A DNA stretch of 64,000 bases from Mesotoga infera (GTDB lineage Bacteria > Thermotogota > Thermotogae > Petrotogales > Kosmotogaceae): NCBI RefSeq assembly GCF_900157305.1, contig NZ_LS974202.1:2604001-2668000 (forward strand), given 5' to 3'. The translations under genes and the position numbers were made by a program. Of the stretch, positions 18,602-21,937 are shown piece by piece (position 1 is the first letter of the stretch; every line of letters starts with the position of its first letter). The notes under the pieces are model-generated. The model worked only from the letters and a program-made list of their open reading frames with translations. It was not told the origin of the DNA and searched no databases.

Positions 18602-21600
18602 GTGAAAGAATTGATCGAAGAATACTTTGAAAGAAACAAAGATCTAATGATCGAAGACATCGCAAAACTAGTTAGAATAAAAAGCGACAGGCAGGAGGCG
18701 AAGGAGGGAAAACCCTTCGGCGAAGGACCGGCCGAAGTTTTGGCGGTTGCGCTAGAAACAGCATCTAAAATGGGATTTAGGACCTGTAATTACGACAACT
18801 ACGTCGGTGCAATAGATCTGAACGATCATGAAAGGAAACTAGATATACTGGCCCATTTGGATGTCGTGCCAGCCGGGAATGGCTGGTCGATAACCGAACC
18901 CTTCGAACCGTTCATCAGAGACGGCAGAATTTACGGTCGTGGAACAGCAGACGACAAAGGTCCAGCCGTGGCTGCGCTGTATGCAATGAAGGCCGTGAAG
19001 GATTTGAATATTCCCCTCAAGACCGGAGCGAGGCTCATTCTAGGAACTGATGAGGAGTGCGGCTCCTCAGATATAAGATACTACTACGGGGTCGAAACTG
19101 AGGCTCCGATGACCTTCTCTCCAGACACAGGCTTTCCGGTGGTAAACATCGAAAAGGGAGGTCTTCAGGGAAGTTTTGCTTCTGAGTTCGAAGAATCGAA
19201 CACAACACCCGGAGTTTCTTCTCTCAGGTCCGGAGTAAAAAGCAACGTGGTACCGGGTGATTCAATAGCAATCATAGAAGGTATGGAACTTTATAAGATC
19301 GAAGGATACTGCAATGCGGTGAGCGAAAGAACGGGCGTGCTTTTCGAACTTTCGACCAGTGGCAACATCACGACAGTAAAGGCTAAGGGTGTACAGGTCC
19401 ACGCAGCTACACCGGGAAAAGGCAACAACGCCCTGACGGCGATGCTTGAAGTCCTATCTTCGATACCCTTTCCAGAGAGCGAAGGCATCGAAAAACTCCG
19501 TGCACTCAATGCTATCTTCCCTCACGGAGACTGGCTGGGTAAATCCGCCGGAGTCGCCATGAGCGACGAATTGTCAGGTGATCTCGTGCGCCCGGCATGG
19601 TACACAACTATAGGGTGAAAGACCCGAATGTGGGGAGTCAAAGAAGCATTAGCCAGAGGCAAGGGTGTCACTGGTAACGGTGAATCTGAAGGAAGCCCGA
19701 GGCAAAGTCCGGAACTGAACGAAAGTGAACCAGAGATGGCCGTTACAGAGGGTAACCCTGCGAGATAAGGGAAAGCCCTGACTCCAGCTGTAAAGGTTCG
19801 GATGGCAGGATTCGGATGAAAGTGGTGTATCTTACCCGGGGAAGTCCTCATGAGTCCGAAAGGGGTAACCGTTAGCAAGGAGGAGATCCAAGTTAAGGGA
19901 AAGCTCAGGAGGATGGCAGATGAACCCGTAGTAGTGAAGAACCTCTCCGAAAGGAGAAGGGACCTTGGCTATAAGCCAAGGGGGTGATGAGGAGGTCGAA
20001 AGGCTCCATCACTTGCGAAGGGGAGAAGGATCGAAGAAATGTGATCGGAAGACAGTGAAGAGACTTAGGTCAGACAGTTAAAGACAAGGTACATATTCCC
20101 GGGAGGGTAGAGAAGCCAGTCATTAATTGTCGCAACAATATCTGAGGCTGGAGCTGTTGGAAGGGAGCATGCAGGAGAAAGAGATGAAGTATTACAGTCT
20201 AATCGACAAAGTCTATTCGAAGAAGAACCTATTGAAAGCCTATCACAGGGTAAACTCCAACAGAGGAGCTCCTGGGATAGACGGAGTAACCGTAAAATCA
20301 TTCGGGGAGAAACTCCTTGAAGAAATCGAGAGATTATCCGAAGAAATCAAGAGCGGTGAGTACATGCCCATGCCACTCAGGAGAGTAGAAATCCCAAAAG
20401 CAGATGGTAAAACAAGGCAATTGGGAATACCTACTGTGAGAGACAGGGTGGTACAACAATCTCTCAAGGAGATACTGGAACCTATATTCGAGGAAAGATT
20501 CCATCCCTCCAGTTACGGTTACAGAAAGGGAAGAAATGCCTGGCAGGCGGTGGAGAAGGCGAAAGCTTTTGCATCCAAATACGGTCTGTGCAATGTAGTG
20601 GAACTTGACCTGAGCAAATGTTTCGACACTCTGGATCATGAGAAGATAATAGACTCCGTAGCAGAGAGAGTGAGTGATGGAAAGATACTCAAACTCATAC
20701 GCGCAATGCTGAAGAGCGGAGTAATGGAAGATGGAGTCTGGAAGGCAACAGAAACTGGCAGTCCACAGGGTGGTGTAATAAGTCCCCTGCTGGCGAACAT
20801 CTACCTGGACGAGTTCGACCAGAAGATGAAAGCCAGAGGAATAAGGATAGTCAGATATGCAGACGACATATTAATCTTCTCGAAAACCCAGGAAGAAGCC
20901 CGAGAGTTTCTGGCAATCGCGATCAACATACTGGAGATTGACATGAAGCTCAAGGTCAACAGAAACAAGACGAGAATCACAACACTGGAGGAGGGCTTTC
21001 ACTTTCTTGGCTTCGAAATAAAAGGCGAGAGAGTTGGGATAGAGAAATCCAGATTGAAAAGGTTCAAGGGAAAGGTCAAGGGACTTACAAGAAGGAACCA
21101 GAGCACACCGGTAAAGGAAATAGTGAAAGAGCTAAATCCACTGTTGAGAGGATTTGCCAGCTATTTCAGGATAGTAGACTTACAATCTACCTTGAGAGGG
21201 CTTTTGAGCTGGATAAGGAGAAGGCTTAGAGCCATCATACTACACCAGTGGAAGAGCACAAAGAAACTGAACAGAGTCCTTAGAAGGGCTGGATGGGAAG
21301 AGAAAGTCAATTTGAGAATGAACAAATGGCGCTCTTCTCACACAAAAGCAGTCAATTACGCCATTCCCAACAGGTTCTTTGAAGAGATGAACTTATTCGA
21401 TATGACATCGTACTATCATCCCCTGTCGAAGTATCCGATACTCGATCCATGAGCCGTGTACGAGGCCCGTACGCACGGTTCTGTGAGAGGACGAGGGGCT
21501 CCGCCCCTCTCCTACTCGATACTATAAGCTTGAACATTCTGGATTACGATGGCTCCAGCCTTTGCGGAAGCTTCGATTGCAGAGCACCGCTCTGTGCAAC

Positions 21601-21937
21601 CAGAGAGAACCTGGTGGACGTAATCAGAGAGAGATTGGCCAGACATGGAATACGTCTTGAAAACAATGATATGTATCCACCACACCACGTTTCGGGAGAA
21701 TCTCCTTTTGTCCAGACGCTGTTGAAATGCTACGAACTCTACACCGGAAACAAGGGGTACTGCATCGCAATAGGCGGTGGCTCTTACGTTCATCGATTGA
21801 AGAACGGTGTAGGCTTCGGATGCACCATGCCCGGGACGGACAACAATATGCATGGAGCTGACGAATTCGCCGTGATCGACGAGCTGGTCACGAGTGCAAA
21901 AATATTCGCCCAGGCGATAATAGAAATCTGTCAATAA
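18602..21937 (+). CDS. M20 family dipeptidase (PepV-like), interrupted by a group II intron
   Basis: Exons are 18602-19585 and 21521-21937; joined they give 466 residues, the usual PepV length. Exon 1 encodes His85-x-Asp87, Asp117/118 (GTADDKG) and Glu151/Glu152 (DEECGSSD) of the two-zinc site. Exon 2 encodes the last metal His (MHGADEF). The exons meet exactly at a codon boundary, SGDL then TISLNILDYDG. Without splicing, translation stops at 19618 and the product lacks the final domain, so activity needs intron removal. GTG start with GAGGTGG upstream. It should hydrolyse dipeptides supplied by the operon's transporter and TldDE. Confidence 0.88.
20184..21452 (+). CDS. ltrA: Group II intron reverse transcriptase/maturase
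   Basis: About 422 residues from the ATG at 20184, which has AGGAG six bases upstream; in-frame ATG at 20169 and TTG at 20127 are alternatives. RT motifs are visible: NRGAPGIDGVTV, the RQLGIP/RDRVVQ block, DLSKCFD with the first catalytic Asp, GSPQGGVISPLL and YADD (the other catalytic Asp pair). A C-terminal maturase (X) domain follows (SYFRIVDLQSTLRGLL, LRRAGW). No HNH endonuclease domain is present, so mobility would be endonuclease-independent. Its stop codon overlaps the first base pairs of domain V. Confidence 0.93.
   Translation: MKYYSLIDKVYSKKNLLKAYHRVNSNRGAPGIDGVTVKSFGEKLLEEIERLSEEIKSGEYMPMPLRRVEIPKADGKTRQLGIPTVRDRVVQQSLKEILEPIFEERFHPSSYGYRKGRNAWQAVEKAKAFASKYGLCNVVELDLSKCFDTLDHEKIIDSVAERVSDGKILKLIRAMLKSGVMEDGVWKATETGSPQGGVISPLLANIYLDEFDQKMKARGIRIVRYADDILIFSKTQEEAREFLAIAINILEIDMKLKVNRNKTRITTLEEGFHFLGFEIKGERVGIEKSRLKRFKGKVKGLTRRNQSTPVKEIVKELNPLLRGFASYFRIVDLQSTLRGLLSWIRRRLRAIILHQWKSTKKLNRVLRRAGWEEKVNLRMNKWRSSHTKAVNYAIPNRFFEEMNLFDMTSYYHPLSKYPILDP
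21451..21520 (+). ncRNA. Group II intron domains V and VI
   Basis: Domain V: lower stem 21451-21458 with 21474-21481 (one G-U), a two-base CG bulge at 21472-21473, upper stem 21459-21462 with 21468-21471; the catalytic AGC triad is 21452-21454. Domain VI: GAGAGGA at 21485-21491 pairs with 21510-21517 leaving A21514 unpaired, and GAGGGGC at 21493-21499 pairs with 21503-21509. The bulged A lies seven bases from the 3' splice site, as expected for the branch point. Confidence 0.9.

Follow-up and report, generated by a model that had tools for sequence, protein, structure and literature searches.

A recent, probably ectopic copy of a mobile IIC-like group II intron in a dipeptidase gene, in a family found behind hairpins

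Within the 64,000-nucleotide stretch of DNA analysed here (the window), a dipeptidase gene is interrupted by a group II intron. The evidence makes it highly probable that this is a mobile, endonuclease-less, IIC-like intron and that the copy in the dipeptidase gene is a recent and ectopic one; that it is spliced out is plausible and somewhat more likely than not. Because the gene is interrupted, the cell must cut the intron from the message to make that dipeptidase. The interpretation given with the original prediction is partly supported: what sits in the window is no settled gene intron but a hairpin-seeking, IIC-like retroelement that recently landed off target. Coordinates of the features are collected in Table 1.

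Table 1. Features of the interrupted dipeptidase gene and its intron (window positions).
Feature	Position	Strand	Basis
5' exon: codons 1-328 of the M20/Sapep (PepV-like) dipeptidase gene, ending ...GGTGATCTC, phase 0	18602-19585	+	NCBIfam TIGR01887/PRK07318; gapless spliced alignment
IBS1, ATCTC	19581-19585	+	5/5 pairs with EBS1; family covariation
Group II intron, IIC-like, 1935 nt, GTGCG...CGAT	19586-21520	+	Rfam; exact copy boundaries; sister-genome empty site
Domain I core, RF02001 (group-II-D1D4-3)	19668-19830	+	cmscan 100.5 bits, E 2.5e-19
EBS1, GAGAT, D1d terminal loop, intron nt 177-181	19762-19766	+	Best of 555 5-nt windows; 0/5000 permutations
Candidate EBS3, C, intron nt 214	19799	+	9/9 pairs in Kosmotoga-like copies; tentative, ties for top column
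GAGATC, six-base complement of the exon end, decoy	19883-19888	+	No covariation in relatives
Reverse transcriptase/maturase: RT and X/thumb, YADD, no endonuclease	20169-21452	+	TIGR04416, 416 bits; RVT_1, GIIM
Domain V, AGC triad and 2-nt bulge	21451-21481	+	RF00029; fold
Domain VI, bulged branch-point A at 21514	21484-21518	+	Fold, z -3.92
3' exon: the dipeptidase gene's final 138 codons and stop	21521-21937	+	Profile match; spliced alignment

The element is confirmed as a real group II intron with base-exact ends. Genomic copies agree from nt 1 to nt 1935 and lose their similarity beyond either edge, the termini (GTGCG at the start, AT at the end) fit the GUGYG/AY rule for group II introns, and the Rfam domains, copy edges and empty site all agree with the splice sites of the original prediction. 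The covariance-model search which that prediction had proposed for the intron matched both RF02001 and RF00029, the latter over domains V and VI at 21449-21520 (45.1 bits, E 1.2e-5). Folding reproduced two further details that had been read from the letters, the two-base bulge of domain V and a bulged A in domain VI at the seventh base from the 3' end, and the combined fold of the two domains was matched by 0/200 shuffles.

The reverse transcriptase (RT)/maturase sits in domain IV of the ribozyme. Its likely start codon, ATG 20169, lies behind GGAAGGGAG in a frame that is open from TTG 20127. As had been predicted, the enzyme lacks an endonuclease: a domain search of the ORF returned RVT_1 and GIIM and no HNH/endonuclease domain. 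Compared with PDB proteins, it matched the IIC maturases GsI-IIC (297 bits, the best match) and E. rectale (262 bits) above the IIB/IIA maturases T.el4h (168 bits) and LtrA (145 bits). An ATG that overlaps the RT stop codon (ATGA) opens a frame of 162 aa (21449-21937), which runs through domains V and VI into exon 2 in the frame of the dipeptidase. This is probably chance, since ATGAGCCGT is conserved domain V sequence; the frame could in principle give an exon-2 fragment made from unspliced RNA.

The two flanking halves are parts of one dipeptidase, which bears out the earlier claim that the intron interrupts a protein-coding gene. Joined in frame at the predicted junction GGTGATCTC^ACTATAAGC, the exons encode a 466-codon Sapep/PepV-type dipeptidase, and the joined protein aligns without gaps to seven orthologues from the genus. 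All seven are uninterrupted, so the position of the intron is not conserved. The closest orthologue (84% DNA identity) has the intact sequence TCGGGTGATCTC^ACTATAAGCC at the insertion point, and a sister genome provides the empty site GGTGATCTC^ACTATAAG. Compared with the empty site, the insertion has no target-site duplication, which is what reverse splicing predicts. The intron lies in the sense strand of the gene.

The genome (2.97 Mb, one contig) contains 13 full-length copies that are 98-100% identical and about 10 truncated pieces. Two of the other full copies have 0 mismatches to the window copy over 1935 nt, and its insertion is therefore very recent. It is too young for the exons to have decayed, and so their intactness is no evidence of splicing. 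The sister genome (M. prima-like, 2,974,229 bp) has six full copies at 92-93% identity, and a Kosmotoga-like genome of the same family (2,302,126 bp) has five RT-bearing copies along with five short ORF-less ones. The ORF-less introns have lost the RT and keep both ends, domain V and an EBS1; they are likely non-autonomous IIC-like introns that depend on the five RT-bearing copies for mobilisation in trans. A search of GTDB contigs for named relatives returned only one Bacillota MAG (61%). Within the literature collection searched, no paper dealt with group II introns in Mesotoga, and the one Kosmotoga hit was incidental.

We scanned 29 near-full-length or ORF-less copies from the two Mesotoga-like genomes and the Kosmotoga-like genome for upstream hairpins. 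In 28 of the 29, an inverted repeat, perfect or nearly so, forms a stem of 5-8 bp whose end lies 3-7 nt ahead of the intron; random positions reach a stem score of at least 6 in 1.6% of cases. The window copy is the single exception, with a hairpin score of 0. A candidate hairpin at its site was rejected, as this GTCGC-GCGAC stem (z -1.56) ends 18 nt upstream as against 3-7 nt for the others. The targets in its own genome take the form ATGCCGGA-CCTGA-TCCGGCAT+CNC or ATTCTGAG-CTTGA-CTCAGAAT+CNC, those in the sister genome ATCCCGAA-CTTGT-TTCGGGAT+CTG, and those in the Kosmotoga-like genome are short palindromes plus six or seven bases. Most of the target hairpins are REP-like dispersed palindromes. 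The two own-genome hairpins are dispersed repeats present at 87 and 61 places, none of them within the window, and they carry no T run and are therefore not typical terminators. These roughly 148 places are strongly clustered, mostly between 0.4 and 1.56 Mb of the chromosome and often in arrays.

Judged by open frames across the junctions, no other copy lies within a conserved gene; the junction-spanning frames belong to repeat arrays or to a frame upstream of an sfsA-like gene. The original prediction had placed the intron in a coding gene and not after a terminator. That is correct for the window copy; the prediction missed the family, whose 28 other members stand behind hairpins. The coding-gene site is an off-target outlier, not the rule, of a recently expanded, multicopy IIC-like family.

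To locate the exon-binding sequence, every 5-nt window within intron bases 1-559 was scored for pairing with the five bases that end the 5' exon, in 18 non-redundant introns, one decayed copy being left out. The window at the D1d terminal loop scored 0.894; the runner-up reached 0.611, and permutations averaged 0.478. EBS1/IBS1 pairs in the family read GAGAT/ATCTC, CAGAT/ATCTG, CTTAC/GTAAG, CGAGA/TCTCG and CGTGA/TCACG, natural compensatory changes that link the loop to its target across the family; a minority of copies have one or more mismatches. Pairing of EBS1 in related introns had been set beforehand as a test, and the covariation answers it positively. The predicted EBS1-IBS1 pairing thus exists, but not as the six-base match proposed, for which the prediction gave no EBS1 coordinates. 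GAGATC, the only six-base match found to the exon end, fails to pair in the M. prima-like and Kosmotoga-like introns, and the real EBS1 is the 5-nt loop.

A window scan for EBS2-IBS2 found nothing consistent (the best window pairs at most 0.79), since identical introns follow unrelated -12..-6 sequences. The candidate EBS3 pairs in 9 of 9 cases in the Kosmotoga-like genome with two pair types, forms G-U in the sister genome and is mixed in the own genome, in a column tied with another. The +1 exon base of the window copy, A, mismatches this candidate C. The +1 base is likewise mismatched in five further own-genome copies, so insertion evidently does not depend strictly on IBS3.

That the window copy splices is plausible, and we judge it somewhat more likely than not that it does so at a useful level. 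In its favour are the full ribozyme, the perfect EBS1-IBS1 pairing, the intact RT, the in-frame, phase-0 sense junction and the several donor RTs that would be available in trans; the absence of a 5'-exon stem-loop and the +1 mismatch weigh against it. Toor and colleagues are said to have found in 2006 that the 5'-exon stem-loop matters for 5'-exon recognition by a IIC intron. A contrary reading, to which we give real but lesser credence, is that the insertion is a knock-out: the copy would lie in a dispensable dipeptidase gene without useful splicing, because IIC introns use a stem-loop and an IBS3 match that this site lacks, and a paralogue would sustain the lineage. An intact Sapep-family paralogue is indeed present in the same genome (1701202-1702524) and could relax selection on the interrupted gene or make it dispensable. 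The unspliced frame stops 10 codons past the 5' splice site, and the very recent arrival also agrees with a knock-out. It sits less well with catalytic domains and an RT that are all intact, with 5/5 EBS1-IBS1 pairs, with an insertion that is both sense-strand and in frame, and with +1 mismatches at five other own-genome sites.

It is very improbable that the intron is of IIB type, with a 6-bp EBS1 and an EBS2, resident in the dipeptidase gene and co-adapted to it. The GAGATC match, the AGC triad of domain V and the coding-gene site would suit such an intron, but the seven orthologues lack it, sequence-identical copies lie elsewhere in the genome, the 5-nt D1d loop covaries where GAGATC does not, and no IBS2 pairing is consistent. 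Least probable is that another copy supplied the intron through recombination or gene conversion instead of reverse splicing, for although many near-identical copies exist, some duplicated together, the coding flanks are unique and the layout is the empty site plus exactly the intron, with no foreign flank.

The recognition logic, absent endonuclease, domain I and RT similarity place the family with group IIC; we call it IIC-like, with an IEP that may be of class C, g6, U1 or U2. The domain V triad is AGC, as in terminator-inserted Alteromonas and Vibrio relatives; that of the O. iheyensis IIC intron is CGC, which is not universal. The literature lists g6, U1 and U2 as neighbours of class C with the same preference for terminators (PMC8919778). 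Group IIC introns behind terminators (the E. rectale E.r. intron, GsI-IIC, B.h.I1, O. iheyensis) share with this family a GTGYGCCCGGCATGG-like 5' end, an RF02001 domain I, a short D1d-loop EBS1, a candidate EBS3, the lack of EBS2 and endonuclease, and insertion just 3' of a hairpin. They differ in that the Mesotoga/Kosmotoga EBS1 loops are not A-rich, and in that the family targets dispersed palindromes instead of T-tract terminators, with one copy in a coding gene. RF01998 found no match in the family intron and does match an Anoxybacillus IIC-like intron. In the E. rectale IIC structure, D1d bases A184-G187 are paired to IBS1, and the DNA stem-loop takes the place of EBS2; the EBS1 loop is in the same place as here, and the EBS3 and stem-loop logic is the same (PMC10190682). 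The IIC-attC introns of integrons likewise insert at an inverted repeat that is not a terminator and use a short IBS1 (PMC7923331), whereas this family has neither attC nor the TTGT/T site, and its IBS1 is ATCNC, ATCTG, GTAAG, TCTCG or TCACG. The plasmid-borne IIC-like introns of Alteromonas and Vibrio are similar in the RT (49% identical), RF02001 and domains V and VI (GAGCCGT..., ...CTACTCGAT), but lie directly after terminators with T runs and have an A-rich EBS1 loop (CAAAAT, CGAAAT).

The pathway of mobility, branching and in-cell splicing that we infer is as follows. The RNP would reverse-splice into DNA hairpins, either single-stranded or extruded, at a point immediately 3' of the stem. 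The 5-nt EBS1-IBS1 pairing, together with an EBS3-IBS3 contact of one base, would set the exact position, and the RT would then copy the inserted intron from a host primer. The EBS1 loop would have been re-coded from a terminator-type AAAA to the hairpin targets of each host, mostly dispersed palindromic repeats. Because the Alteromonas and Vibrio relatives combine an A-rich loop with T-run terminators, it appears that the Mesotoga/Kosmotoga lineage re-coded a terminator-type EBS1 to local hairpins, and that the change ran in this direction. The window copy would have arrived very recently, at an ectopic site that offers a perfect ATCTC IBS1 but no hairpin, and ribozyme and maturase most likely excise it from the mRNA to give the 466-codon message, possibly with reduced efficiency.

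IIC introns are thought harmless, since they are confined behind terminators or attC hairpins. In Geobacillus stearothermophilus, Moretz and Lampson reportedly described an rRNA methylase gene with a IIC intron in it, a precedent for interruption of a coding gene. We hold it possible, though less likely than not, that here a hairpin-dependent IIC-type retro-intron entered a coding gene by EBS1-IBS1 alone and splices there, with repeated re-coding of EBS1 to host repeats. If true, the step from a harmless intergenic hairpin element to a true gene intron would have been caught in progress. The family shows that the EBS1 loop is naturally re-codable to host-specific hairpins (at least five matched EBS1/IBS1 pairs, three genomes) and that an identical element can land in a gene without a hairpin. 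Identical copies with and without a hairpin form a natural matched experiment on the need for a 5'-exon stem-loop in insertion and splicing, a question that bears on how IIC-like elements gave rise to gene introns and on efforts to programme IIC targeting.

Other arrangements in the genome are worth recording. At 813525-816893 and 1435184-1437183, introns stand head to tail in tandem with 0 bases between them, the second intron (or a 5' fragment of it) beginning at the 3' end of the first. Several truncated introns stop at TGTCAACATCAATCGGAAATGTG-like terminal repeats, which are probably another transposon family inserted in the introns. Intron pairs at 942025-946092 and 2855025-2859090 have the same spacing of about 196 bp and one identical upstream flank, which suggests a segmental duplication.
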